This document shows positions 7,727 to 21,349 of a stretch of DNA of 64,000 bases, piece by piece (the first letter of the stretch is position 1; each line of letters opens with the position of its first letter). The stretch lies in NCBI RefSeq assembly GCF_003596405.1, contig NZ_QYUR01000002.1, forward strand, positions 2,496,501-2,560,500, read 5' to 3'. A program made the translations under genes and the position numbers. Under the pieces are notes generated by a model, which saw nothing but the letters and a program-made list of their open reading frames with translations, ran no database searches and had not been told where the DNA came from. The stretch comes from Pseudomonas cavernicola. GTDB lineage: Bacteria > Pseudomonadota > Gammaproteobacteria > Pseudomonadales > Pseudomonadaceae.

Positions 7727-8641
7727 TCAACTGAGTCCGCGCGCGCCGAGAAAGGCCGTTAGATGCTCGATAAAGGCCCGCACCTTGTGCGTAGAGCGCC
7801 GGTGACTGAGGTACAGGGCATGCACCCAAGGGCCGAGAGCATCCGGTTCGAGGCGGTATTCGCCGAGCAGCTGCACCAGCTGCCCACTGGCCAAATAGGG
7901 GGCCGCGCTCCACTGCGGACAGAACTGCAGGCCCTGACCGGCCAGCAGGTGCGCCAGCAGGAAGTCATAGCTGTCGCTGGTCAGCCGCGGCGCGGGTTGC
8001 TCGATACGCAGGCGTTGCTCGCCCAACCTCAGCCACCAGTAATTGCGGTTCAGCGCGGGATGCCGATAAATCAGCCAGTCGTGTTGGGCGAAGGTCTCCG
8101 GCAGCACCGGGAGCGGGTTGCGTTGCAGATAGTCCGGGCTGGCGCACAGCAGGATACGGTTCTCGGTAAGTGGGCGGGCGATCAGGCCCGGCAGATCGAT
8201 GGGGCCATCGCGCAGGGCCAGGTCATAGCCGCCCTCGACCAGATCGACGAACGCCTCATTCAGATCGACCTGCAGCCTGATCTGCGGATGCGCCCTGAGG
8301 AAGCCGATGCTGGCCTCGTTGAGAAAGGCCGGGCCGAACGACGGCGGCGCGCTCAAGCGCAAGCTGCCACGCAACTCGGACTGCAACTGGTCGATTTCGT
8401 CGGCCGCCTCATGCAGGTTCTGCAGGGCCTGGCGGGCGCCTTCCAAGTAGATATGCCCGGCTTCGGTCAGTGCCATGCGCCGCGTCGAGCGCTCGAACAG
8501 GCGCGCCCCGAGCTCGCCTTCCAGATGCGCCACGGCCTTGGTCAGCGCCGAGGGCGTCTTACCCAAGTGCTCGGCGGCGCGGCTGAAACTGCCGTGGTCG
8601 GCGGTGGCGACGAACATGGTCAGGGCACTCAGTTTGTCCAT
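7727..8641 (-). CDS. LysR-family regulator (module copy 1)
   Basis: A 304-residue LysR protein: N-terminal helix-turn-helix (SFSRAAEHLGKTPSALTKAV, then HLEGELGARLFERSTRR) and a substrate-binding domain (GSLRLSAPPSFGPAFLNEA to the C-terminus). It is transcribed away from the amidohydrolase at 8750 with 108 bp between them, the usual layout for a LysR protein that controls its divergent neighbour. It is a clear paralogue of the 304-residue LysR at 11688-12602: same length, near-identical recognition helix region and shared GGYDLA, GLIA(R/K)PL and CASP motifs. The inducer is unknown. The highly similar recognition helices suggest both bind similar operators. Confidence 0.93.
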   Translation of the reverse strand: MDKLSALTMFVATADHGSFSRAAEHLGKTPSALTKAVAHLEGELGARLFERSTRRMALTEAGHIYLEGARQALQNLHEAADEIDQLQSELRGSLRLSAPPSFGPAFLNEASIGFLRAHPQIRLQVDLNEAFVDLVEGGYDLALRDGPIDLPGLIARPLTENRILLCASPDYLQRNPLPVLPETFAQHDWLIYRHPALNRNYWWLRLGEQRLRIEQPAPRLTSDSYDFLLAHLLAGQGLQFCPQWSAAPYLASGQLVQLLGEYRLEPDALGPWVHALYLSHRRSTHKVRAFIEHLTAFLGARGLS

Positions 8642-8749
8642 CGATTATTTCCTGTCAGGCACAGAAGTTGTGCGCAATAGCGGCTTTCCGCCAGCCCCGG
8701 CGCTTCGCTAGTCTCGCGGCTATTCCAAGAAAAACAAAGAGGTATCCCG
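8642..8749. promoter_or_regulatory. Divergent LysR/amidohydrolase control region (copy 1)
   Basis: This 108-bp spacer aligns by eye with the equivalent spacer of copy 2 (12603-12724). Shared pieces are TTTCCT-T-GGCA, TTGTGCGC or TTTTGCGC, and GCGCTAGTCTGGCGGC or its near match GCTAGTCTCGCGGC. The last could hold a -10 element (TAGTCT). Retention in two otherwise diverged copies suggests a LysR operator and promoter. AGAGG precedes the ATG at 8750 as ribosome-binding site. Confidence 0.5.
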
Positions 8750-10492
8750 ATGCGCAGGTTTCTTCCCAAGGTGCTGAGCGCCGCACTGGCTTTTTCCTCT
8801 CTACAGGCCATGGCTGCCGCCGACCTGGTGCTACTCAACGGCAAGGTGTTCACCGCCGAACCCGGCCAGCCGCTGGCCCAGGCGGTGGCGGTGGAGAACG
8901 GCAAGATCCTCAAGGTCGGCTCCAACGCCGAGATCAAGGCCCTGGCCGAGAGCGGCGCCAAGACCATCGACCTGGGCGGCAGAGTGCTGATGCCAGGCCT
9001 GATCGACAGCCACTCCCACGCCATCATGGGCGGCTTGGAGCTGGCCTCCGCCAATATGGCCAGCGAGCAGGTCAGCCTGGAGGAGCTGGAACAGCGCCTG
9101 CGCAAATGGCGTGACGACGGCAGCGCCAAACATGGCGACATCCTCAGCGTCGGCGGCATGCACTCCAGCTACTGGAGCCAGATCGAAGGTTTCGCCGAGC
9201 GCTTCAATAAGGGCGAGTGGGCCGAACAGCCGCTGGTCTTCATCGGCTGGGATCACCATACCGGCTGGGCCAACGATGCCCTGCTGAAACATGCCGGGAT
9301 AGATGCGGCACGGGTCCGCGCCTTGCCGGAGGCCGAACGTGACACCATCGGTCACCGCGCAGACCTCAGCCCCAACGGCTTCCTCGCCGATGCCGGTCTC
9401 GACCCGGTGCTGGCCAAGCTACCCGCGGCTACCGACGCCGAGTTGCTCCACGCCGCCCAGGCGGCCGTGCGCTACAACAATGAACTCGGCATCACCGCCT
9501 GGATGGACCCGGCCGCCAACGCCGCACCGGGCGCGGCGCTGTTCGACCTGAAACCCACGGAGAAAACCGTCGGCGTGCTGCCGGTGTACAAGGCGCTGGC
9601 CGACAAGGGCGAGCTGAACGCCCACGTCGCGGCCCTGCTGGTGGCGCATCCGAAGAGCACTCCGGCCGATCTGGCGACCCTGGACAAGGTCCGCCAGCAG
9701 TTCCAGGGCATCCCCAACTTGAGCCTGCCGGGGATCAAGATCTTCGCCGACGGCGTACCCGAGTATCCTGCGCAGACGGCCGCGATGATTGATCCCTACA
9801 GCAACTCGCAGAAACGCGGCGAGCTGCTGATCGACCCGGCGCACTTTGGTGAACTGGTCAGCGCGGCGGACCAGCGCGGCTGGCTGGTGCATATCCATGC
9901 CCTCGGCGATCGCGCGGTGCGCGAGTCACTGAACGGCATCGAGCAGGCACGCAAGGACCGCCAGAGCGGCATTGCCCACTCGATCACCCACCTGCAAATG
10001 GTCAATCCCAAGGAGTTTGCGCGCTTCAAGCCGCTCGACGTGATCGCCTCCATGCAGCTGTACTGGGCCAGCGCGGATGACGTCACCATCGATCTGGTCA
10101 AACCCTATATCAACGCCCTCGCCTTCCATTACCAGTATCCGGCCCACTCGCTGCACGCCAAGGGCGCCACCATCGCCGGCGCCAGCGACTGGCCGGTGAC
10201 CACCCCAAACCCCTGGTACGCCATCTACCAGGCGGTAACCCGCAAGGGGCCGAAGGGGGTGCTTAACGAGGCCGAGCGTATCGACCGCGAGACCATGTTC
10301 TACGCCTACACCCGCAATGCCGCGCGCACCTTGGGTCTGGAGCAGCAGATCGGCTCCCTTGCCCCCGGCAAACAGGCCGATCTGATCCTGCTCGATCGCG
10401 ACGTGTTTGAGGTCCCCGCGCAAGCATTGAAAGATACCCAGGTCCTCAAGACCTTCTTCGCCGGCCGCGAAGTCTACTCGCGCGCCGAATAA
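8750..10492 (+). CDS. Secreted amidohydrolase, YtcJ-like (Amidohydrolase family 3), copy 1
   Basis: A 580-residue protein with a signal peptide ending near AMAAAD (residues 21-26), so probably periplasmic. Metal-dependent hydrolase features are LLNGKVFTAEPG in the N-terminal beta-sandwich, GLIDSHSHAIMGG with the metal-binding HxH near residue 87, HIHALGDRAVRESL near residue 383, GASDWPV near residue 480 and GSLAPGKQADLILLDRD at the C-terminus. Family members hydrolyse C-N bonds in amides, formamides or cyclic ureas; the substrate cannot be told. It is followed by a TorF porin and preceded by a divergent LysR gene, and has a same-length paralogue at 12725-14467. Confidence 0.92.
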   Translation: MRRFLPKVLSAALAFSSLQAMAAADLVLLNGKVFTAEPGQPLAQAVAVENGKILKVGSNAEIKALAESGAKTIDLGGRVLMPGLIDSHSHAIMGGLELASANMASEQVSLEELEQRLRKWRDDGSAKHGDILSVGGMHSSYWSQIEGFAERFNKGEWAEQPLVFIGWDHHTGWANDALLKHAGIDAARVRALPEAERDTIGHRADLSPNGFLADAGLDPVLAKLPAATDAELLHAAQAAVRYNNELGITAWMDPAANAAPGAALFDLKPTEKTVGVLPVYKALADKGELNAHVAALLVAHPKSTPADLATLDKVRQQFQGIPNLSLPGIKIFADGVPEYPAQTAAMIDPYSNSQKRGELLIDPAHFGELVSAADQRGWLVHIHALGDRAVRESLNGIEQARKDRQSGIAHSITHLQMVNPKEFARFKPLDVIASMQLYWASADDVTIDLVKPYINALAFHYQYPAHSLHAKGATIAGASDWPVTTPNPWYAIYQAVTRKGPKGVLNEAERIDRETMFYAYTRNAARTLGLEQQIGSLAPGKQADLILLDRDVFEVPAQALKDTQVLKTFFAGREVYSRAE

Positions 10493-10527
10493 ACAGGACT
10501 CCGCCTAGCCCCGTTCGCAAGAGGCTC

Positions 10528-10560
10528 GCTCCGCCCGGTTAGGACGGGGCCGGGCGGAGC
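10528..10560 (+). terminator. GC-rich hairpin between amidohydrolase and TorF porin
   Basis: Eleven-base arms GCTCCGCCCGG (10528-10538) and CCGGGCGGAGC (10550-10560) flank an 11-nt loop. No U-run follows, so it may act as an attenuator or mRNA-stability element within the amidohydrolase-porin transcript rather than as a strong intrinsic terminator. The equivalent spot in copy 2 (14500-14520) keeps a related but smaller stem. Confidence 0.45.
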
Positions 10561-10620
10561 CTTGCCCGCGCTCTGTCACACCGCTCTGCCTAAAACAATC
10601 ACAACAATGGGGAACCCCGC

Positions 10621-11361
10621 ATGAACCGCCTCACCCTGCTCTGCCTCGCCGGTCTGGCCCTGACACCGCTGACCTCGCAAGCGCTGACGCTCAACGATGA
10701 CTTCAGCCTGCAGATCGACCTGGCCGCGCTCAGCGACTATCGCACCCGTGGTATCAGCCAGACCCAAGGCGATCCCGCGGCCCAGGCCGGCGCCACGCTG
10801 CTGCACAGCAGCGGGCTGTATGCCGGGGCCTGGACCTCCAACGTGGATTTCGGCCTGGATCTCAAGACCCGCCAGGAGCTCGATCTCTACGCCGGTTACT
10901 ACTGGCAAGCGACCGACGCCGTCAGTCTCGATCTCGGCTACGTCAAATACAGCTACCCGAAGGAGAGCCAGTTCAACCAGAGCGAGGTCTACGCCATCCT
11001 CGACGCCTATGGCGTGCAACTCGCCGCCTATTACTCCAACGATGCGCCGAACCTCTTCGGCGTAGACCAGGACACCCTCTACACCTACCTCGGCTACAAG
11101 ACCACGCTGCCGGCCGAGCTGGGCCTGGAGTTGCGCTACGGGCGGATGGACTTCAAGGACCCGCTGTTCTGGACCAGCAGCGGCGAGAGCAGCGAGTCCT
11201 ACTACGAGTGGGAAGCCAAGCTGAGCCGCGACCTGTTCGGCGTCACCTGGGGCCTGAGCTACGTCGACACCGACATCTCGGAAAGCGAGTGCGCCAGCTT
11301 CTACGGCTTTACCGACGTCTGCACGGCGACTGTTGTCGCCAGCGTCAGCAAGAGTTTCTAA
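10621..11361 (+). CDS. TorF-family outer-membrane porin (copy 1)
   Basis: A 246-residue protein with a signal peptide (LTLLCLAGLALTPLTSQA). Its mature part is typical of the TorF/Gcw_chp putative-porin family: LAALSDYRTRGISQTQGDPA near the start, GLYAGAWTSNVDF, ELDLYAGYYWQ, and a C-terminal beta-strand ending in phenylalanine (VVASVSKSF), the signal for outer-membrane insertion. GGGGAA lies upstream of the ATG. It follows the amidohydrolase by 128 bp and is probably co-transcribed, serving as the outer-membrane entry route for the same compound. A 258-residue paralogue lies at 14577-15353. The stop codon abuts a dispersed repeat. Confidence 0.9.
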   Translation: MNRLTLLCLAGLALTPLTSQALTLNDDFSLQIDLAALSDYRTRGISQTQGDPAAQAGATLLHSSGLYAGAWTSNVDFGLDLKTRQELDLYAGYYWQATDAVSLDLGYVKYSYPKESQFNQSEVYAILDAYGVQLAAYYSNDAPNLFGVDQDTLYTYLGYKTTLPAELGLELRYGRMDFKDPLFWTSSGESSESYYEWEAKLSRDLFGVTWGLSYVDTDISESECASFYGFTDVCTATVVASVSKSF

Positions 11362-11518
11362 GACCCTGTCCAATATCTACTGCGCTTGGCCATGCTGCGT
11401 TGCAAACCGGCTCGGACGAGCGCTTGCGGGTGAACGTCCGCAGGACGGTCCTGCGGGCCAGCCTTCAGCTGTTACTCCGCTTTGCTGCGTTTGATCTGGT
11501 CAAACGATTCTGGACACC
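11361..11518. repeat. Dispersed repeat related to the AGAACCTGTTCA family (degenerate copy)
   Basis: It begins AGACCCTGTCCAATATCTACTG and continues CGCTTGGCCATGCTGCGTTG, closely matching the reverse complement of the right end of 54905-55208 and the left end of 39893-40034. An imperfect complementary end, GATTCTGGACA, occurs near 11508-11518. Its first base is the last base of the porin stop codon. The rest of the gap to 11687 holds a small hairpin (GGTGGAAAA with TTTTCCACC, 11523-11552) and no gene. Confidence 0.6.
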
Positions 11519-11687
11519 CCATGGTGGAAAACCGCTTTGCGGATTTTCCACCCTGCGCAACTGCATATCGCCTACGGCGTGCTCAAATCGGGGCAACCTT
11601 TTGATGCTCGACGGGCTCTTGTTCACTGACTAGAGAAACGGTATCTGCGGGGCAATCTGAACCTTAGTGGGGAAAAGCCCTATCCAC

Positions 11688-12602
11688 TCAGGCCAGGCCA
11701 CGCCTCTCGAGGAAAGCCGCGAGATAGTCGATAAACGCCAGCACCTTGCGCGTGGCGCGGCGGTGGCTGGGGTAGACGGCGAGGATCAGTGGGCCGAAAG
11801 CGTCCGGATCGAAGTCGTACTCCGTCATCACCTGCAGCAACTGACCACTCTCTAGATAGGGCTTCACGCTCCACAACGGACAGCAATACAGACCAGCCCC
11901 CATCAGGGTATTGGCCAGTAGCAGGTCGTAATTATCGCTTTGCAGGCGAGCCCCTGGCTGGGGGACGCGCATGCGCACCCCAGCCAGGGACATCCACCAG
12001 TAGCTCTGGTCTAGTGCCGGATGGCGGTAGATCAGCCACTGATGGCGGTCGAAGTTTTCCGGGCTGACCGGTGTCGGATTGGCGGCCAGATACGCAGGGC
12101 TGGCGCAAAGCACTATGCGGTTTTGCCCCAGAGGTTTGGCGATCAGCCCTGGCAAGTCACTGCGACCCTCGCGCATTGCCAGGTCGTAACCACCCTCGAC
12201 CAGATCAACGAAGGCATCGCACAGATCCACCCGCAGCTTAATCTGCGGATGGGCGACGAGAAAGCCGGCACAGACCTCATCGAGAAAGGCCCGGCCGAAG
12301 GCCAGCGGTGCGGTCAACCTCAGGTTGCCATGCAAACCGTGCTGCAACTGGCCGATCTCCTCACCGGCATCATGCAGACGCTGCAGCACCTGGCGGGCGG
12401 TTTCCAGATAGAGCCGGCCGGCCTCGGTCAACGCCGTGCGTCGGGTGCTGCGCTCGAACAGCTGCGCGCCCAGTTCGGCCTCCAGATGGCTGACGGCCTT
12501 GGTCAAAGCCGAGGGCGTCTTGCCCAGCTGCTCGGCCGCACGGCTGAAGCTGCCGTGCTCGGCGGTGGCGACAAACATGCTCAGGGCGCCGAGCTTGTCC
12601 AT
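11688..12602 (-). CDS. LysR-family regulator (module copy 2)
   Basis: A 304-residue LysR protein starting MDKLGALSMFVATAEHGS; an in-frame ATG seven codons upstream is possible, but this start matches the paralogue exactly. Helix-turn-helix SFSRAAEQLGKTPSALTKAV is followed by HLEAELGAQLFERSTRR, then an effector domain (GNLRLTAPLAFGRAFLDEV). It is divergent from the second amidohydrolase gene and has the same length as the LysR at 7727-8641. The DNA-binding part differs from that paralogue by only a few residues, whereas the effector domain has drifted more. This fits two regulators with similar operators but different inducers. A piece of a third such gene survives at 17081-17128. Confidence 0.93.
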   Translation of the reverse strand: MDKLGALSMFVATAEHGSFSRAAEQLGKTPSALTKAVSHLEAELGAQLFERSTRRTALTEAGRLYLETARQVLQRLHDAGEEIGQLQHGLHGNLRLTAPLAFGRAFLDEVCAGFLVAHPQIKLRVDLCDAFVDLVEGGYDLAMREGRSDLPGLIAKPLGQNRIVLCASPAYLAANPTPVSPENFDRHQWLIYRHPALDQSYWWMSLAGVRMRVPQPGARLQSDNYDLLLANTLMGAGLYCCPLWSVKPYLESGQLLQVMTEYDFDPDAFGPLILAVYPSHRRATRKVLAFIDYLAAFLERRGLA

Positions 12603-12724
12603 GTTGCTTTTCCTATTTGGCAAAAGGGTTTTGCGCTGCAGCGGTGTTCTGCCGGCCTGCGCCAGGCGCTAGTCTGGCGGCCAGCTCAATAAAAACAACT
12701 CAATAAAAACATGAGGCTGCCCCG
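12603..12724. promoter_or_regulatory. Divergent LysR/amidohydrolase control region (copy 2)
   Basis: The spacer shares GCGCTAGTCTGGCGGC and the TTTTGCGC block with copy 1. It differs by a 14-bp tandem repeat, CTCAATAAAAACAA then CTCAATAAAAACAT (12685-12712), just before the ribosome-binding site GAGG of the ATG at 12725. The repeat lengthens and A-enriches the leader relative to copy 1. Confidence 0.5.
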
Positions 12725-14467
12725 ATGCAACGATTTATTCCAAGCTTGTTGGCCACTGCGATGGCTTTTTCCTCGATGGAAGCAATGGCCGCCGCCGATC
12801 TACTGCTGTTCAACGGCAAGGTGTTCACCGCCGAACCTGGCCAGCCACTGGCCCAGGCGGTGGCGGTGGAGAACGGCAAGATCCTTAAGGTCGGTAGCGA
12901 TGCCGAGGTCAAGGCCCTGGCCGATGCCGATACGCAACGGATCGATCTCGCCGGCAAGGTCCTGATGCCCGGCATGATCGACACCCACAGCCATCCGGTG
13001 ATTGCCGCCTACGACAGCATGGGCTCCAACCTGTATGACACAGTAAAACCGCTACCCGACCTTGAGCAATGGATCATCGCCGAGGATCAGGCCGGTCACG
13101 CGCGCCTGGCTGACGTGGTCAGCATTGCCGGAGTTAGCTCGGCCTATTGGGAACAAAGCCGTGAACTCGGCAAGATCTTCAATCAGGGCCGCTGGGCCGA
13201 CCAACCTGTGGTGCTGAACGGCATCGACGGCCATACCGGCTGGGCCAATAACGCCATGCTCAAGCGCCTGAAGATCGACGCGGCGCTGGTAAAAAGCCTG
13301 CCGGAGAAAGAACGCAACTATATCGGCCACGCAGCCGACTTCACGCCCACTGGTTATTTATCTGAAAACGGCTGGGATCGGGTCCGCAGCCAGCTGCCCG
13401 GCCCCACTGAATCAGTCATGCTGAACGCCGCCCGCAAGGCCGTGAAAGTCAACAACCAATACGGCGTCACCGCCTGGATGGACGCGGCGGCTAATGCCGG
13501 CAGCGGCGATTCGCTGTTCGAGTTGCGCCCGACCGAGCAGAGCTTCGGTGTACTGCCGCTCTACCGCAAACTCGCGGAAGACGGCGAACTCAGCGCCCAC
13601 GTCGCCGCCCTGCTGATCACTCATCCGCAAAGCAAACCGGCTGATCTGCAAGTGCTGGCCAAGGTCATGCAGCAGTTCGAAGGCGTGCCAAACCTGACGT
13701 TCCCTGGCATCAAGATTTTTGCCGACGGCATTCTGGAATTTCCAGGGCAGACCGCCGCGGTTATTGACCCATTCAAAAACAGCCTCAAACAAGGAGAGCT
13801 GCTGATCGACCCGGCGCACTTTGGTGAGCTGGTGGTGGCGGCCGAAAAGCGCGACTGGATCGTGCACATGCATGCGGTCGGCGACCGCGCGGTGCGTGAG
13901 TCTTTGAATGGCTTTGAATATGCCCGCAAGCTCAACCCAACCCCGGTACCGCACAGCATCAGCCACCTGCAACTGGTCAACCCCAAGGAGTTTCCGCGCT
14001 TCAAACAGCTCGGCGTGATTGCGTCCATGCAGCTGCTCTGGGCCACCGCCGAGACCTACACGGAGGAGTTGGTCAAACCCTATATCAGCGCCTTCGCCTA
14101 CCAGTACCAGTATCCGGCCCGCTCGCTGCACAAGGCCGGCGCGACCATTGCCGGCGCCAGCGATTGGCCGGTGTCCAGCCCCAATCCGTGGAATGCCATC
14201 GCCCAGGCCAGCACCCGCAAAGGCCCGCTCGGCGTACTCAACAGTGCCGAGAGTATTGACCGCGAAAGCATGTTCTACGCCTACACCATCAACGCGGCCA
14301 AAGCCCTGCGCCTGGAGCAGCAGATCGGCTCCCTGGCACCTGGCAAACAGGCAGACCTGATCGTTCTCGACCGCGATGTATTCAAGGTCAGCGACAAAGA
14401 ACTGTCCGACACCCAGGTCCTGCAAACCTTTTTCGCCGGCAAACAGGTCTACGCCCCCGCGTCCTGA
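12725..14467 (+). CDS. Secreted amidohydrolase, YtcJ-like (Amidohydrolase family 3), copy 2
   Basis: A 580-residue paralogue of the gene at 8750, with the same signal peptide ending (AMAAAD) and the same landmarks: FNGKVFTAEPGQPLAQAV, GMIDTHSHPVIAAYDS (HxH), HMHAVGDRAVRESLNG, GASDWPVSSPNPW and GSLAPGKQADLIVLDRD. Base identity with copy 1 is extremely high in some blocks (12816-12897 differs at only about three positions from 8841-8922). The segment after the HxH (residues about 88-130) is almost unrelated. Metal ligands are kept in both, so both are probably active, and the divergent loop probably shapes the substrate pocket. Substrate unknown. Confidence 0.92.
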   Translation: MQRFIPSLLATAMAFSSMEAMAAADLLLFNGKVFTAEPGQPLAQAVAVENGKILKVGSDAEVKALADADTQRIDLAGKVLMPGMIDTHSHPVIAAYDSMGSNLYDTVKPLPDLEQWIIAEDQAGHARLADVVSIAGVSSAYWEQSRELGKIFNQGRWADQPVVLNGIDGHTGWANNAMLKRLKIDAALVKSLPEKERNYIGHAADFTPTGYLSENGWDRVRSQLPGPTESVMLNAARKAVKVNNQYGVTAWMDAAANAGSGDSLFELRPTEQSFGVLPLYRKLAEDGELSAHVAALLITHPQSKPADLQVLAKVMQQFEGVPNLTFPGIKIFADGILEFPGQTAAVIDPFKNSLKQGELLIDPAHFGELVVAAEKRDWIVHMHAVGDRAVRESLNGFEYARKLNPTPVPHSISHLQLVNPKEFPRFKQLGVIASMQLLWATAETYTEELVKPYISAFAYQYQYPARSLHKAGATIAGASDWPVSSPNPWNAIAQASTRKGPLGVLNSAESIDRESMFYAYTINAAKALRLEQQIGSLAPGKQADLIVLDRDVFKVSDKELSDTQVLQTFFAGKQVYAPAS

Positions 14468-14576
14468 TAACCACTCCACCCGCTCCGCCTGAACGGCCCG
14501 GCTCCTCGCTCTGCGAGGGGCTCGGCACAGCCTTGTCCGAATCTGCCCACATACTCATAACAACAGGGAAATTTGC

Positions 14577-15353
14577 ATGAATGCGCTACCCGCCCTAGCC
14601 CTTGCCAGCCTTGCACTGGCGCCACTGTGCAGCACCCAGGCGATTGAACTAAGTGATCAGTTCACCCTCAGCATCACCCCCACGATCATCAGCGATTACC
14701 GTGCCAGCGGCCTTTCGCAAACCCAAGGCGACCCGGCCGGGCAATTGAATATCGTGCTCAGCCATATCAGCGGCCTGTATGCCGGCGTGTGGACGTCCAA
14801 CGTCGACTTTGGCTATGAGTCCAAGACCCGCCAGGAAATCGAGTACTACGCCGGTTACTACTGGCAAATGACTGACGACATCAGCCTCGACACCTTCTAC
14901 ACCCAGTATGAATTCCCGCGCGAAAGCCAGTTCAACCAGAGCGACATCCAGGCCACCCTGGATATCTACGGCGTGCTGCTCGGCGGCAAATACGTCAGCA
15001 ACATAAAAGGCCCGGACTACGAGGATGAAGATGGCAATTGGCACACAGGCGCCCAGGACGAGGACCTGGCCTCGGCCTTTATTGGCTACCGCACCCAGCT
15101 GCCGGCCGAAATCGGCTTCGAAGCCCGCTACGAATACGTCGACTACAAGGACGACGTATTTTTCAGCGACGACGGCAGCAGCCGCCCCGACTATCGCAAC
15201 TGGGAAATCAAACTGAGCCGTGACCTGATCGGCGTGACCTGGGGCCTGAGCTATATCGACACCGACCTGTCGAAAACCGAGTGCCAGAGCTTTACGGGCT
15301 TCGACGACCTGTGCGGCGCGACGCTGGTGGCCAGCGCCAGCAAGACCTTCTAA
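14577..15353 (+). CDS. TorF-family outer-membrane porin (copy 2)
   Basis: A 258-residue TorF/Gcw_chp protein with a signal peptide (LALASLALAPLCSTQA). Shared family motifs are IISDYRASGLSQTQGDPAG, GLYAGVWTSNVDFGY, IEYYAGYYWQMTDD, DLIGVTWGLSYIDTDLS and a terminal ATLVASASKTF. It carries an insertion of acidic residues absent from copy 1 (GPDYEDEDGNWHTGAQDEDL, around residues 144-163), probably in an extracellular or pore loop. AGGGA precedes the ATG. It lies 109 bp after amidohydrolase copy 2 and repeats the arrangement of copy 1. Confidence 0.9.
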   Translation: MNALPALALASLALAPLCSTQAIELSDQFTLSITPTIISDYRASGLSQTQGDPAGQLNIVLSHISGLYAGVWTSNVDFGYESKTRQEIEYYAGYYWQMTDDISLDTFYTQYEFPRESQFNQSDIQATLDIYGVLLGGKYVSNIKGPDYEDEDGNWHTGAQDEDLASAFIGYRTQLPAEIGFEARYEYVDYKDDVFFSDDGSSRPDYRNWEIKLSRDLIGVTWGLSYIDTDLSKTECQSFTGFDDLCGATLVASASKTF

Positions 15354-15407
15354 CCGGCCGCTGCAAAACCACTGCGAGCTTCGTGCGCTAGGCGGCGTTG
15401 CAATCCG

Positions 15408-15512
15408 CCTCCCGAGCTGTCTGGCAATGCTGGCTTGGCTCTGATTGCAAGCTAAGCCAGCCACCATTTGGTAACGCTGGCCCTCAGTCAGCTGCCGGTA
15501 CGACGTAGTCAT
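15408..15512 (-). mobile_element. IS30-family transposase N-terminal remnant
   Basis: On the minus strand an ATG at 15510-15512 opens MTTSYRQLTEGQRYQM followed by VAGLACNQSQASIARQLGR, the N-terminal helix-turn-helix of IS30-type transposases. Homology stops after about 35 residues, and no catalytic DDE domain follows. It lies in the 254-bp gap between TorF copy 2 and the NCS1 permease gene. A shorter piece of the same kind of gene occurs at 32812-32859. Confidence 0.75.
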
Positions 15513-15607
15513 CAGCAGCAGGCGCGCAAGGCCGGCTGGAGTAGCAGTTTTCAATCCCACCCAACAAAAACAAGAGCATCAGTCTGTTCCTCAAGGAGAA
15601 CTCAGTA

Positions 15608-17020
15608 ATGACCAAGGTCAGCGATAGTCCGCAGCGAAGGCCCCTGATCGAGACACGTTCGATCGATTACATTCCCGAGGCTGAGCGCCATGGCAGCCTC
15701 TACAGTCAGTTCACCCTTTGGCTCGGCGCCAACTTGCAGATCACTGCGATAGTCACCGGTGCTCTGGCCGTGGTGCTGGGCGGCGATGTGCTCTGGTCAC
15801 TCATTGGGTTGCTGATCGGCCAACTGTTCGGCGGCGCGGTGGTTGCCCTGCATGCCGCGCAGGGGCCTAAGCTCGGGCTGCCGCAGATGATCTCCAGCCG
15901 CGTGCAGTTCGGGGTCTACGGTGCAGCCATCCCGATTGTGCTGGTGTGCCTGATGTATCTCGGCTTCAGCGCCACCGGCGCGGTATTGTCGGGACAGGCC
16001 ATCGCCCAGTTGATCGAGGTCAGCGACAGCGCCGGCATCCTGATTTTCGCCTCCTGCATCGCGTTCCTGACCATGTTCGGTTATCGGGTCATCCACCTGG
16101 TCGGCAAGGTCACCAGTGTGCTCGGCATCATTGCCTTCGTGTACTTGTTCACCCGGCTGATGACACTCAACGATATCGGCCTCTTGCTGGACAATCGCCA
16201 CTTCGGCTGGAGCTCCTTCCTGCTGGCGGTGTCCCTCTCCGCGTCCTGGCAGATCGCCTTCGGCCCCTATGTGGCCGACTATTCGCGCTACCTGCCGAGC
16301 AAGACCTCGTCCTGGAAGACCTTCACCGCCGTCGGCCTCGGCACCGTGCTAGGCGCCCAGGCCTCGATGGTGCTGGGGGTGTTCGCGGCGGCGTTGGCGG
16401 GCGCGAATTTCCGCGGCCACGAGGTGGCCACCATAGTCGGGCTGGGCAGCACCGGAGTGATGGCCGCTCTGCTGTATTTGAGCGTGGTGCTCGGCAAGGT
16501 CACGGTCTCCACTCTTAATGCCTATGGCAGCTTCATGTGCGTCGCCACCGTGATCAGCGGTTTCCGCGGTCGCCTGGAGATTTCACCCGTGCAGCGCATG
16601 CTGTTCATTCTGCTGATTGTCGGGGCTTCCACCACCATCGCTCTGCTCGGTCAGCACTCGTTTCTGAGTGCGTTCAAGTTCTTCATCCTGTTTCTGCTGA
16701 CCTTCTTCACGCCCTGGAGCGCGATCAACCTGGTGGACTATTACTTCGTCAACAAGGAGCGTTATGACGTGCAGGCGCTGTCCAACCCCGATGGCCGCTA
16801 CGGTCGCTGGAATGTGCTAGGGATCAGCGTCTATGTCACCGGTGTATTGATCCAGCTGCCCTTCGTCGACACCCACTTCTACACCGGGCCGATGGTCGCG
16901 CAACTCGGCGGCATCGATATTTCCTGGATCGTCGGCCTGCTGGTGCCGGGCATCCACTATTACCTGGTGGCCAAGACATCAGCCCTTGCCGTGCCGCCTG
17001 AACGTACCCAAGAGGCCTGA
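15608..17020 (+). CDS. NCS1-family nucleobase:cation symporter (cytosine-permease-like)
   Basis: A 470-residue integral membrane protein with about twelve helices and NCS1 features: SIDYIPEAERHGS before helix 1, FTLWLGANLQITAIVTGAL, GLPQMISSRVQFGVYGAAIP and FGPYVADYSRYLP. The C-terminal helices run through FFTPWSAINLVDYYFVNKER. NCS1 proteins import purines, pyrimidines, hydantoins, allantoin or related rings. AAGGAG stands before the ATG. Coming after the second amidohydrolase/TorF pair, it would complete a route from outer-membrane porin to periplasmic hydrolysis to inner-membrane import. The substrate class is inferred from family and context only. Confidence 0.9.
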   Translation: MTKVSDSPQRRPLIETRSIDYIPEAERHGSLYSQFTLWLGANLQITAIVTGALAVVLGGDVLWSLIGLLIGQLFGGAVVALHAAQGPKLGLPQMISSRVQFGVYGAAIPIVLVCLMYLGFSATGAVLSGQAIAQLIEVSDSAGILIFASCIAFLTMFGYRVIHLVGKVTSVLGIIAFVYLFTRLMTLNDIGLLLDNRHFGWSSFLLAVSLSASWQIAFGPYVADYSRYLPSKTSSWKTFTAVGLGTVLGAQASMVLGVFAAALAGANFRGHEVATIVGLGSTGVMAALLYLSVVLGKVTVSTLNAYGSFMCVATVISGFRGRLEISPVQRMLFILLIVGASTTIALLGQHSFLSAFKFFILFLLTFFTPWSAINLVDYYFVNKERYDVQALSNPDGRYGRWNVLGISVYVTGVLIQLPFVDTHFYTGPMVAQLGGIDISWIVGLLVPGIHYYLVAKTSALAVPPERTQEA

Positions 17021-17080: not shown

Positions 17081-17128
17081 ATCGAGGAAGCCCGCGAGAT
17101 AGTCGATAAACGCCAGCACCTTGCGCGT
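17081..17128 (-). pseudogene. C-terminal tail of a third LysR copy
   Basis: The minus strand reads TRKVLAFIDYLAGFLD, the C-terminus of the LysR at 11688 (TRKVLAFIDYLAAFLE). A run of 35 bases, 17094-17128, is identical to 11719-11753, and weaker similarity (TGGCTGGGGT) continues to about 17140. Nothing upstream resembles the rest of a LysR gene. The scrap sits right after the NCS1 gene, so it marks an edge of an ancestral duplication or deletion. Confidence 0.75.
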
Positions 17129-17787: not shown

Positions 17788-18708
17788 TTATGGCACTGCT
17801 GGTGGATCGGTTGGCAGGTTGTTATCGCCCGTTTGCTGGGCGAACCATTGCATGATCTGCGAACGCGCCGGGTGCAATGCGGCTGATGGTTGCAGGTACA
17901 TCGAATAGACCCCCTTGGTCTTCAAAGGAGAACCGAACGGGACGACCAGTACTCCGCGATCAATAGACTCCTGAGCCAGTGTCATGTCGGTCATGGCCAC
18001 CCCCAACCCTCGTGCCGCGGCGTCGAGCGCCAGCTCGTCGAGGTTGAACGGTATCTGCCTATAGTCCTCCAGTAGCAAGCCTCCATTGGCTGCCAGCCAA
18101 AGTTTCCAGTCGTGCTTGTCCGTCGAACGATGGATCAGGGGAAAGTGTGCAAGGTCCTCCACCGATTCAAGTGGTTGGGTCCCGCTGACCAGACCGGGGG
18201 CGCATAACGGAATCAGCGCTTCCTCGAACAGGTTCAGGCAGGTGGGATCGCTTGATGGCTCAGGTAGATAAAGGATGTAAGCGTCGCTGTCGCTGGACGG
18301 TTCGACGACTTCGGTCGCAACAGTCTCGATCGACAAGGATATGTCCGGGTAACGCCTATAGAAATCTGTCAGCTTCGGCAGCAACCAGCGGACCGCCAGC
18401 GACACATGCATGCGTATGCGAAAGGGGCGATCCTGCGGAGAAATCCGGCTCTCCAGTACTTTCAATTGCTCCAGAATTTTCTGCGCAGTGCTCAGGACCT
18501 GCTCGCCTTCCACAGTCAGACGGACGCTGCGGCTGTTCCTCACGAACATGGGGACGCCGAAGTGACTCTCCAGTTGTTGAATCTTTCGGCTCACTGCGCT
18601 CTGGGTCAAACAGAGCTCTTCTGCCGCTTGGGTGAAGCTGTCCGAAGCGGCAACTGCCACCAGCGCCTGCAAGGCCTGGAGAGAGGGCACGCGGTGAAGT
18701 TTATCCAT
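17788..18708 (-). CDS. LysR-family regulator (GcvA-like), divergent from the FAD oxidase
   Basis: A 306-residue LysR protein: helix-turn-helix DSFTQAAEELCLTQSAVSRK, then IQQLESHFGVPMFVRNSRSV, and an effector domain with the GcvA-type pattern RMHVSLAVRWLLPKL and ARGLGVAMTDMTLA. It is divergent from the oxidoreductase at 18904 with 195 bp between them and is the likely local regulator of that gene and the PotF-like gene after it. It is not closely related to the two module LysR proteins at 7.7 and 11.7 kb. A weak, AT-richer divergent promoter region separates the genes; I could not assign boxes with confidence. Confidence 0.9.
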   Translation of the reverse strand: MDKLHRVPSLQALQALVAVAASDSFTQAAEELCLTQSAVSRKIQQLESHFGVPMFVRNSRSVRLTVEGEQVLSTAQKILEQLKVLESRISPQDRPFRIRMHVSLAVRWLLPKLTDFYRRYPDISLSIETVATEVVEPSSDSDAYILYLPEPSSDPTCLNLFEEALIPLCAPGLVSGTQPLESVEDLAHFPLIHRSTDKHDWKLWLAANGGLLLEDYRQIPFNLDELALDAAARGLGVAMTDMTLAQESIDRGVLVVPFGSPLKTKGVYSMYLQPSAALHPARSQIMQWFAQQTGDNNLPTDPPAVP

Positions 18709-18903
18709 GCGTTTTGAGAATGGCTCAATGAGTTTATAGCGTTGGTTATATCACCCACGGCCTCGTAGATTCTAGCCATAGAGTCCGTCGCCAAAAAGGT
18801 TATGCATGCTTACACCGCATGTTGTCATCTTTCGGTCCGGCGCGGCGCGCAAGAGACGACAGGTTCTTGGCTAGTCCAGGGCGACAGTATGTGAGGCGAT
18901 GCT

Positions 18904-20205
18904 ATGAAGAATGAGTGTGGTTGGATTCCGCTGGCCGGGAACTCGCCCCGTCGTGAGTGTCTGAGCGGTACGGAAAAGGTCGACTGGCTGGTGATAGGTG
19001 CCGGTATCACCGGGCTTTCCGCTGCTCATGCGCTTGCTGACATGCATCCTCAGGCACGGATCGTGATCGTTGACCGGCAGCGGGCGGCGCGGGGGGCCTC
19101 GGCGCGCAATTCCGGATTCGTGGTGGCCCACGAACATCCTGGAGTCGATGAACTGGTCGGTAGCCGGGACTTCGCCGGTTACGAAGTGGATACTTCGATC
19201 TCGCGTGCCGCCAATGAGGAAGTACGAAAGCGTATTGCCCGTCAGGGCATCGAGTGCGAGTTCAGGGACTCCGGCTATTTCTTCGCGGTCAGCGATCCGC
19301 ACAAGCTGACGCATGTCGACGCTCGACTGGAAACGCTACGGGCCGTCGGCGCATCTGCGGAGTTCCTGGAAGGCGAACGCCTGGTGCAGAAGCTGGGAAC
19401 CCGGCATTACCGAGCGGCGATCTGGTGTGGTAACGGCAACGCCCTGCTGCAGCCGGCGAAATACGTGAAGGGCCTGCTGGATACGCTGCCAGACACTGTG
19501 ACCCTGTTCGAGGAGACCGATATCACTGGCCTGGAGCGTCTGGGCAGGGGGCGTCTGCGCGCCAATGGCCCTGGCGGCAGCATTGAGGCGAAGCAGGTAC
19601 TGGTCTGCCTGAATGCCTTTCTCCCCCGCGTGGGTGTACGGGACAGCGGGACCTTCCCGATGGAGCTTAGCGCCAGTCTCAGCCGGCAGTTGAGCGACGA
19701 GGAGTTCCGGAGCATCGGTGGTGTGGAATCTTGGGGCGTGCTGTCCACCCGTCCGCTCGGAGCCACCGTGCGGCTTACCCCGGATCGTCGCGTGCTGATC
19801 CGCAACACCGCCGAATACCGAACTCGGGATTTGTCCGGCAGTGAACTCTTGAGCCGCCGCAAACACCATCTGCTCGGTTTGCAGCGACGCTTCCCCTGGT
19901 TTGCCGAGCAGGACATCCAATACACCTGGACCGGGCACCTGAGCGCCTCGCGCTCCGGGCAGCCCTATTTCGCCAAGGTCGAAGAGGGATTGTTCGCCGT
20001 GGCCGGATGCAATGGTTCAGGCGTCGCACGCGGCACCCTCTGGGGGCGGCTGCTTGCCGAACTGGCATCGGGCGGCGACTCGCCAACCTTACGGTCGGTC
20101 ATGGACAGGGCCCAGCCTGGCTGGTTACCCCCACGTCCCTTGTTCGACATCGGCGCAATGCTGCGTATGCAAGTGGAGGCGGTTAGAGCAAGGACGGAAG
20201 TCTAG
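18904..20205 (+). CDS. FAD-dependent amine/amino-acid oxidase (DAO family, PuuB-like)
   Basis: A 433-residue FAD oxidoreductase of the DAO fold. The dinucleotide-binding motif is WLVIGAGITGLSAAHALAD near residue 30, followed by IVIVDRQRAARGASARNSGF, which fits the flavin-contacting segment of gamma-glutamylputrescine oxidase-type enzymes. The C-terminal FAD loop is AVAGCNGSGVARGTLWGRLL. These enzymes oxidise secondary or primary amines to imines. A PotF-like binding-protein gene follows after 55 bp, so an amine such as a polyamine or its glutamylated form is a likely substrate. No gamma-glutamylpolyamine synthetase gene is nearby. No signal peptide; cytoplasmic. Confidence 0.88.
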   Translation: MKNECGWIPLAGNSPRRECLSGTEKVDWLVIGAGITGLSAAHALADMHPQARIVIVDRQRAARGASARNSGFVVAHEHPGVDELVGSRDFAGYEVDTSISRAANEEVRKRIARQGIECEFRDSGYFFAVSDPHKLTHVDARLETLRAVGASAEFLEGERLVQKLGTRHYRAAIWCGNGNALLQPAKYVKGLLDTLPDTVTLFEETDITGLERLGRGRLRANGPGGSIEAKQVLVCLNAFLPRVGVRDSGTFPMELSASLSRQLSDEEFRSIGGVESWGVLSTRPLGATVRLTPDRRVLIRNTAEYRTRDLSGSELLSRRKHHLLGLQRRFPWFAEQDIQYTWTGHLSASRSGQPYFAKVEEGLFAVAGCNGSGVARGTLWGRLLAELASGGDSPTLRSVMDRAQPGWLPPRPLFDIGAMLRMQVEAVRARTEV

Positions 20206-20260
20206 AAAACTCGGCTATCACAACAAGAACGAAAGCTCTTCAACAAGAAGGTGACCGAAC

Positions 20261-21349
20261 ATGAACGTCAACAAGAACCTCCTGGTGGCAATGCTCACCA
20301 CGTTTTCGGCAACGACCTACGCAGCCGGAGACGTGATCATCTCCAACTGGAGCGGGTATATCGCCGACGATACCCTGAGCAATTTCACCAGGGACACTGG
20401 CATCAAGGCGACTTACGACATTCACGACAGCAACGAGGTTCTCGAGTCCAAGCTGATGACCGGCAATACCGGCTATGACGTGGTCAGTCCCTCGAACCAC
20501 TTTCTCTCCAAGCTGATCAAGGCGGGAGCAATTCAGAAGCTGGACAAGAGCCAGCTGCCTAATTGGAGCAACCTCGATCCGGTGCTGATGAAGGTGCTGG
20601 AGGTCAACGACCCGGGCAACCAGTATGGTTACCCCTACATGTGGGGTACCGTCGGCATTGGCTACAGCGTCGAGAAGATCAAGGCGATATTCGGCAGCAC
20701 CGAGATCACCCGCTCCTGGGGCATGTTGTTGGACGAGAACAACATCAAGAAGCTGAGCCAATGCGGTGTGGCGATGATCGACAACCCCACGCAGATCCTG
20801 CCGATTACCCTCAACTACCTGGGACTGCCCCACCATAGCCACGACCCAGCGGATTACCTCAAGGCCGAGCAGGCGCTGATGAAGATCAGGCCGTCCATCC
20901 AGTATTTTCAATCATCCAAGTACGTCGCTGACCTGGCTAACGGCGATATCTGCGCCGTCATCGGCTTCAACGGCGACATTCTGCAGGCGGCACGCAGCGC
21001 CAAGGAGGCGAAAAACGGGGTAGAAATTGCCTATTCGATCCCCGAGGAAGGCTCCACCCTGTGGTTCGACATGGTGGTCATGCCGAAGAACGCGCCGCAC
21101 GAAAAGAACGGCTATGCCTACATGAATTACCTGCTCGATCCAAAAGTCATCGCCGATATCAGCAACTCTATCAATTACGCCAACCCCAACACGGCAGCCG
21201 ATGTCTATGTCCACCCGTCCCTGAGGGCTGAACCGGCGGTTTATCCGCCGACAAAGGTGATGGACAAGCTATTCACCGTAGAGGAGCTGCCATTCAAAAT
21301 CGTGCGTCTGAGCACCCGCCTGTGGACCAAGCTGAAAACCGGTACCTAG
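20261..21349 (+). CDS. PotF-like periplasmic binding protein (paralogue 2)
   Basis: A 362-residue PotF/SpuD-family protein with a short signal peptide ending near TYAAGD. GAAGGTGA stands upstream of the ATG. It keeps the fold motifs (YDIHDSNEVLESKLMTGNTG, YPYMWGTVGIGYS, RLSTRLWTKLKTG). The ligand-pocket positions remembered from PotF are changed: NWSDY is NWSGY, the pocket tryptophan before GD is phenylalanine (IGFNGDI), and the acidic residue of PxEE/PTEV is glutamine (NPTQI). It has therefore lost two negative charges and probably binds something other than free putrescine or spermidine. It is probably co-transcribed with the FAD oxidase; no ABC permease genes are adjacent. Confidence 0.92.
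   Translation: MNVNKNLLVAMLTTFSATTYAAGDVIISNWSGYIADDTLSNFTRDTGIKATYDIHDSNEVLESKLMTGNTGYDVVSPSNHFLSKLIKAGAIQKLDKSQLPNWSNLDPVLMKVLEVNDPGNQYGYPYMWGTVGIGYSVEKIKAIFGSTEITRSWGMLLDENNIKKLSQCGVAMIDNPTQILPITLNYLGLPHHSHDPADYLKAEQALMKIRPSIQYFQSSKYVADLANGDICAVIGFNGDILQAARSAKEAKNGVEIAYSIPEEGSTLWFDMVVMPKNAPHEKNGYAYMNYLLDPKVIADISNSINYANPNTAADVYVHPSLRAEPAVYPPTKVMDKLFTVEELPFKIVRLSTRLWTKLKTGT

Follow-up and report, generated by a model that had tools for sequence, protein, structure and literature searches.

A LysR, predicted exported amidohydrolase and TorF porin module in two versions, with an optional NCS1 permease, in Pseudomonas cavernicola

We examined a 64-kb stretch of the Pseudomonas cavernicola genome (contig NZ_QYUR01000002.1 of assembly GCF_003596405.1, positions 2,496,501 to 2,560,500; hereafter the window), in which two units, each composed of a LysR regulator gene, a divergent gene for a YtcJ-like amidohydrolase (Ami) and a gene for a TorF-family putative porin (Tor), are followed by one gene for an NCS1 permease. 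The module is real, conserved and built of known families, and it is not described in the open literature searched. A general plan of porin, periplasmic hydrolase and importer is likely. We give an even chance to a more specific proposal, namely that this is a modular periplasmic scavenging system in two insulated versions, in which an amide conjugate is cut outside the cytoplasm and a part of it is imported. TorF, as a small 12-strand outer-membrane channel, would admit the amide-bonded conjugate, and in the periplasm the exported dizinc amidohydrolase of YtcJ type would split the amide bond. The NCS1 permease of unit 2, a close paralogue of the hut-operon permease, would take up the acid half, which is most probably urocanate or a urocanate-like aryl or imidazole acrylate, and the hut pathway could use the imported acid. 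In other lineages, the amine half would be handled by linked genes for a PotF binding protein, a ligase of the glutamine synthetase fold and a flavin adenine dinucleotide (FAD) oxidase. Control by each LysR would be confined to the unit that carries it and would act through that unit's palindrome; the two units therefore likely respond to different conjugates, one each.

An initial annotation of this DNA had reported the two units and the single NCS1 gene. All seven open reading frames (ORFs) were recovered at their places with the families as named, and they are arranged with their putative regulatory elements as follows (aa, amino acids).

7727..8641, minus strand: LysR1, regulator of unit 1, of the class with Met56; 304 aa, HTH_1 and LysR_substrate
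8659..8673, no strand: operator 1, putative, palindrome GCACA-N5-TGTGC, at the same position as palindromes in other LysR-Ami gaps
8686..8714, plus strand: possible sigma-70-type promoter of unit 1, TTCCGC, 17 nt, TAGTCT, picked by eye in a conserved block
8750..10492, plus strand: Ami1, YtcJ-like Amidohydro_3 amidohydrolase of type 1, predicted exported; 580 aa, assigned by tree and metal ligands
10621..11361, plus strand: Tor1, TorF/Gcw_chp putative porin; 246 aa, TIGR02001 above cut-off
11688..12602, minus strand: LysR2, regulator of unit 2; 304 aa from the ATG, HTH_1 and LysR_substrate, 94% identical to the copy at L060
12620..12634, no strand: operator 2, putative, palindrome GCAAAA-N3-TTTTGC, from the gap alignment and a genome pattern search
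12647..12675, plus strand: possible sigma-70-type promoter of unit 2, TTCTGC, 17 nt, TAGTCT, picked by eye in the gap alignment
12725..14467, plus strand: Ami2, YtcJ-like amidohydrolase of type 2, predicted exported; 580 aa, assigned by tree and structure model
14577..15353, plus strand: Tor2, TorF/Gcw_chp putative porin; 258 aa, TIGR02001, 12-strand barrel in the model
15608..17020, plus strand: NCS1 permease of the module clade, a near relative of the hut-operon permease; 470 aa, Transp_cyt_pur
17082..17128, minus strand: LysR 3'-end remnant, 45 of 47 bases as in LysR2 (96%), with no intact gene after it

Pfam placed the seven genes in HTH_1 with LysR_substrate, Amidohydro_3, Gcw_chp and Transp_cyt_pur, with PF00126 and PF03466 above cut-off in both regulators. 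For LysR2 the ORF list started at a TTG (12623; 311 aa); the ATG at 12602 fits better and was preferred because the TTG would fall within operator 2. Partners in the two units are 67% (LysR), 63% (Ami) and 57% (Tor) identical, and the repeat is far beyond chance, since long DNA repeats run in register between the units at an offset of 3,959-3,975 bp.

Linkage was counted in 149 genomes of the genus. An Ami match at E <= 1e-60 was present in 47 of them; once the 13 rows that belong to a weaker type of amidohydrolase, c6, were set aside, 49 Ami copies in 46 genomes remained (the c6 proteins with a complete start have, by eye, a lipoprotein-like or Sec-like N-terminus). TorF stood directly 3' of 43 of the 49 copies, as the linkage proposed by the initial annotation predicts; conversely, 43 of 60 strong TorF matches (at least 161 bits, weaker ones being dropped before the count) stood directly 3' of Ami. 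The TorF family is much wider than the module, some TorF being found at E <= 1e-8 in 105/149 genomes. P. cavernicola has a third TorF gene itself (L052:8307-9035), 62% identical to Tor1 and with no Ami adjoining. A contig scan for relatives took in 80 of 352 confirmed loci, among the matches listed, and a context set was formed of 83 distinct Ami copies with at least 55% identity in the fetched loci, whose lineages overlap, so that loci are not independent. Here TorF followed directly in 72/83 cases. Unrelated contexts for Ami and TorF, or a consistently different operon for NCS1, which the annotation had named as counting against it, were sought in related genomes and not found. Farther out, at L111-L126 except L117 (enterobacterial, Aeromonas, Acinetobacter, acidobacterial and other relatives, 37-49% identical), tblastn with the window proteins found no TorF or NCS1 of the module kind, in a search that included some short contigs and that distant homologues would escape.

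The genes on either side of the pair vary. Upstream of the 83 Ami copies stood a divergent LysR (54), a c6 amidohydrolase (10), a LuxR gene (6), an FAD oxidase (5) or none of the tested genes (8). Five loci (L065, from the same genome as L095, and L066, L100, L101 and L117) share the row Peptidase_M14 (634-636 aa), LuxR-type gene, Ami2-type gene and TorF, the LuxR-type gene taking the place of LysR. At ten loci (L072-L077, L079, L080, L082, L110) a type-1 unit stands beside an IMS-domain (ImuB-like) gene and an ORF of about 1,030-1,120 aa, with a LexA-like gene at nine of the ten; this is apparently a mutagenesis cassette. After TorF in the 72 pairs came NCS1 (15), EamA (14), an opposite-strand LysR that is the next unit of an array (10), a same-strand LysR-like match (3) or PotF (2), and 28 pairs had none of the tested genes there. 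NCS1 is thus an optional part, with EamA or PotF in its place elsewhere. These 28 pairs, and the 14 with EamA, whose proteins are often exporters, would also suit a module that is protective or signal-modifying, destroying, before it reaches the cytoplasm, an amide that does harm or acts as a signal, with product uptake as a secondary matter, and a dedicated LysR suits an inducible defence. We nevertheless consider this improbable: a substrate-admitting porin is an odd partner for defence, and the NCS1, PotF and GlnA/DAO contexts point to food use.

Both Ami proteins score far above the PF07969 cut-off of 29.7 bits (242.7 and 222.9). The dizinc ligands H88, H90, K330, H383, H414 and D480 are invariant in 58 aligned sequences, with H170 kept in at least 90%, and all six ligands and H170 are identical across the 57 Ami copies. 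The pair thus keeps the intact ligand set and catalytic His of YtcJ-like enzymes and is predicted to be a hydrolase. By eye, both proteins carry a Sec-type signal (AMA-A), with no lipobox and no clear twin-arginine translocation (Tat) motif, and are predicted to be exported. The proposed periplasmic C-N hydrolase therefore agrees with the kept ligands, as a prediction. The Ami2 structure model (predicted local distance difference test, pLDDT, 93.9) has the fold of 3igh/3icj, and its best matches after YtcJ structures and a Thermonema amidohydrolase are Arg carboxypeptidase (3be7, 3mtw) and Xaa-Pro dipeptidase (2qs8); prolidase and ochratoxinase rank lower among the matches listed. That ranking, and a Peptidase_M14 gene upstream in one lineage, would fit a periplasmic dipeptidase, carboxypeptidase or N-acyl-amino-acid hydrolase that releases an amino acid (histidine, perhaps) from TorF-admitted peptides or conjugates, with nearby permeases importing amino-acid-related products. 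We hold this alternative to be rather unlikely.

The channel side of the proposal was assessed by profile and by model. TIGR02001 ("TorF family putative porin") matched the Tor pair at 155.7 and 129.9 bits, against a cut-off of 47.15. The Tor2 model (pLDDT 86.9) has 12 strands, with porins among the fold matches listed, and points to a small porin-like barrel with a predicted channel role, in keeping with the outer-membrane porin that the initial annotation had proposed. A sequence search of the PDB found no relative of TorF. Outer-membrane channels of the KdgM/NanC type serve the periplasmic breakdown of one specific nutrient; their identity to TorF is only 7-12%, and their partner is a lyase or sugar enzyme, whereas that of TorF is an amidohydrolase. 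To our knowledge, very few substrates have been assigned to TorF porins or to exported YtcJ amidohydrolases.

Next, we considered how old the two units are. When 57 distinct Ami proteins were placed in a quick tree, type 1 (22 rows, with Ami1) and type 2 (35 rows, with Ami2) formed two clades with full support in the Shimodaira-Hasegawa-like approximate likelihood ratio test. LysR1 grouped with the first-unit copies of L071 and L084 and with L069. The TorF and LysR trees match the Ami types only partly, with 2 and 4 label changes, respectively (the TorF set includes the P. cavernicola copy at L052, labelled type 2 by default), and therefore parts were exchanged between units. By these trees the units are old paralogues and not a copy made in this genome. 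What the initial annotation called duplicated accordingly stands as paired paralogous units in register and fails as local copying; a recent tandem duplication was rejected on the basis of the trees. Local gene conversion at Ami codons ~1-75 is possible, where DNA identity is 80-82% against 69% overall; the signal is weak because the C-terminal third also reaches 81%. Since the units are divergent paralogues and Ami1 and Ami2 differ beside catalytic residues, two specificities are more likely than one pathway present twice.

Among the 149 genus genomes, only P. cavernicola has two Ami copies side by side (coordinates read by eye). A family search found Ami in 49/198 genomes, and pairs less than 5 kb apart in 12: P. 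cavernicola and 11/17 matching genomes of a sister genus group, g12. We read ten arrays, namely the window, L071 (P. resinovorans), L084 (Pseudomonas sp. BN411) and L204-L210 (g12). The gene aceK adjoins all ten, and a PALP-fold gene lies on the other flank in the window, L084 and L204-L209; in L210 the PALP match on that flank is just 38%, and the sequence of L071 stops short of it. At L223 (g12) a single unit sits between aceK and the PALP gene, and TorF is missing from one unit of the pair in L206, L208 and L210. The window array has a type-2 unit with NCS1 at one place; in the other nine, both Ami copies are closest to Ami1. In the window the 47-bp LysR remnant stands after NCS1, where a further unit would begin, so recombination has probably both lengthened and shortened the array over time. 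The stretch after the remnant, to about 17600, holds a piece that by eye resembles the terminal part of an outer-membrane barrel protein. LysR, FAD oxidase-like and PotF-like genes (17788-21349) then follow, ahead of the PALP gene; this block was rejected as a module member, the oxidase being present in 27/149 genus genomes and near Ami/NCS1 only in P. cavernicola (coordinates, by eye).

Separate control of the units is suggested by the gaps between LysR and Ami. In 31 aligned divergent gaps the top-scoring 15-mer within a short stretch was chosen, a procedure biased towards a positive outcome; in 30 of them, all but L069, it matched at 5 or 6 arm positions of 6 and lay near the same place, with a promoter-like block after it. 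The putative operators are GCACAGAAGTTGTGC in unit 1 and GCAAAAGGGTTTTGC in unit 2. The unit-1 pattern GCACANNNGTTGTGC had one exact match in the genome, as did its reversed control. The unit-2 pattern occurred once in the 5.6-Mb genome, its reversed control not at all. A joint pattern with one mismatch found only the two operators in the window, yet two or more matches came up in 10 of the 100 shuffles. The operator case thus gains its weight from conservation and not from such counts. Over 53 gaps, operators fell into an A/T class (33), a C/G class (11, including the poorly placed L069) and other forms (9). Regulator position 56 was Met in 11/11 C/G cases, Ile or Thr in 33/33 A/T cases, and Met (6) or Ile (3) in the others; position 52 was Thr in 10/11 C/G cases, the exception being LysR1 of the window, and Ser in 33/33 A/T cases. 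Each of the ten arrays pairs a TGTGC half-site with a regulator of LysR1 type in one unit and a TTTTGC half-site with one of LysR2 type in the other; the order of the units varies. The two units of an array thus look separately controlled, each LysR being predicted to bind its own palindrome, and the two private putative operators fit the dedicated regulator per copy that had been proposed.

The cargo of the permease was approached through its kin. Relatives with at least 87% identity numbered 14 in the 149 genus genomes; eight follow Ami-TorF, five directly follow c6, and one follows a 293-aa piece of c6, so that the module NCS1 lies next to an exported YtcJ-type amidohydrolase in 13/14 genomes and beside a fragment of one in the 14th. 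The next relatives are 69-80% identical. Of six that were read, four (L157, L159, L160, L163) lie in hut operons and two (L158, L162) beside molybdenum-cofactor-type genes by eye; the latter two copies are 75% identical to the window NCS1 and mark a third context for the permease family. Curated profiles identified hutU and hutH as neighbours in L157 and L160, and hutF also in L157; L159 and L163 were assigned by eye. L161 (59%, in another context), L164 (the 40% copy of P. cavernicola) and L165 (which carries a stop and lies near hut-like ORFs) were not taken as urocanate yardsticks, the first two being kept in the tree. Between hutU and hutH, L157 carries NCS1, three ABC-type ORFs and a hutH-like ORF; at that place the excerpted text of a review lists, for SBW25, hutTu (urocanate), hutXWV and hutH1 (PMC8871633), and by elimination the hut NCS1 would be hutTu.

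In the tree the module NCS1 proteins group together as a single clade (100/100), next to the hut copies, and the window protein is 70-80% identical to the hut-operon copies read. Comparing 20 module with 4 hut proteins, 253 of 470 positions do not vary at all, and at nine the two groups are fixed for different residues: six swaps among hydrophobic residues, and A269R, T382N and S421D. The two also differ in place, since the module NCS1 follows Tor2 in company with predicted exported amidohydrolases and HutTu sits between hutU and hutH. No NCS1 was found between the hutU-like and hutH-like matches of P. cavernicola, which lie about 12 bp apart, and its second-best NCS1 is 40% identical, so the window NCS1 may be its sole such permease (another NCS1 gene, 25% identical, lies about 10 kb left of the window; L051, G000:C2:2477000-2496600). 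Because NCS1 is closest to the hut-operon permease and the hut operon here has none, a urocanate-like cargo is the best guess. Its standing as the genome's sole close relative of the hut permease, the lack of one in the hut operon here and the nine fixed differences would also fit a urocanate permease relocated by chance beside the array and serving the hut pathway alone. We think this highly doubtful: 11 of the 14 genomes with the module NCS1 hold a separate 71-75% copy as well, and standing beside an exported YtcJ enzyme in 13/14 is unlike a free gene. The named NCS1 models that were tried scored the window protein far below their cut-offs, and a PDB sequence search gave a chance match only and no relative. 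Kinship to pyrimidine permeases was dropped, the neighbourhoods of relatives showing hut genes instead. No dihydropyrimidinase was found above cut-off in the genome, which argues against a hydantoin or pyrimidine route; with NCS1 nearest to hut permeases, a hydantoin, pyrimidine or purine route was rejected.

Elsewhere the neighbours suggest the other half. Five loci (L064, L094, L097, L098, L099) share the row AraC, ligase of the glutamine synthetase fold, PotF, FAD oxidase, Ami2-type gene and TorF, a context suggestive of amine utilization. Taken with the loci that carry NCS1, this would fit an enzyme that splits an amide into acid and amine, with lineages importing different halves. A wider version of the proposal is a two-channel system that cuts outside and imports a half, acting on amide conjugates such as plant hydroxycinnamic or urocanic acid amides; its constant core would be the porin and the exported YtcJ hydrolase, each lineage would add either a HutTu-like NCS1 to carry the acid half or PotF, with glutamylation and oxidation, for the amine half, and paired regulators with different, co-varying operators would keep the two channels of an array apart. 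This version is speculative and, in our estimate, unlikely to hold in full.

Several points weigh against the amide-conjugate proposal. No gene in the window completes the pathway, and we know of no natural urocanate amide as an obvious substrate. The peptide-type hydrolases that come next after YtcJ among the fold matches would suit a peptide substrate equally well. The ligase, oxidase and PotF clusters match models of gamma-glutamylputrescine synthetase, pipecolate oxidase and PotF below their cut-offs, and the co-variation of operators with regulators is partly common descent. Equating NCS1 with HutTu has gene position as its one basis, and the excerpts of the review give no protein family for HutTu and call hutTh and hutTu orthologues of hutT (PMC8871633). 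In the context set, all 15 copies followed by NCS1 are closest to Ami2, and no type-1 Ami among the 83 has NCS1 after it. The initial annotation had read the trio and NCS1 as a complete route; the NCS1 clade does accompany such enzymes, but NCS1 follows only 8/43 Ami-TorF pairs in the genus genomes and is no fixed part.

Known proteins offer partial likenesses. BwBSH1, a metallo bile salt hydrolase of Bilophila, is an exported YtcJ-like enzyme whose reaction, hydrolysis of an N-acyl amide bond, takes place outside the cytoplasm; its six metal residues and catalytic His are of the kind seen in Ami, and homologous copies lie adjacent (PMC13081902). It has 945 aa, an extra C-terminal domain and sulfonate-binding residues (Ser194, Gln381, Asn443, His544), whereas Ami1 and Ami2, at 580 aa, lack the long form; by residue offset only, Ami Asp168 and Glu338 fall at two of those places, Glu338 corresponding to Gln381. 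The excerpts of that paper describe no link of BwBSH1 to TorF, LysR or NCS1 (PMC13081902). PA2699 of P. aeruginosa, likened to Ami1 and Ami2 by description only, is an exported YtcJ-like Amidohydro_3 protein of the same genus to which the excerpted text assigns no role (PMC4899797); it is Tat-dependent, whereas the Ami signals show no clear Tat motif by eye. A mutant of P. putida JBC17 in a ytcJ gene, alike at least in name, inhibited fungal conidia more strongly, according to an excerpt (PMC8766522). A search of open-licence papers, a weak test of absence, found among the papers listed no description of a module of TorF, exported amidohydrolase and LysR. The earlier statement that no system of this composition is described holds to that extent; the families themselves are known, and the module is a variant of porin, periplasmic hydrolase and importer systems.

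The regulator and operator classes that stay paired across the arrays would offer a natural case of insulation between paralogues. The Ami-TorF linkage, the swaps of importer and the closeness of NCS1 to the hut permease would narrow the candidates for this family to a short, testable list of substrates.

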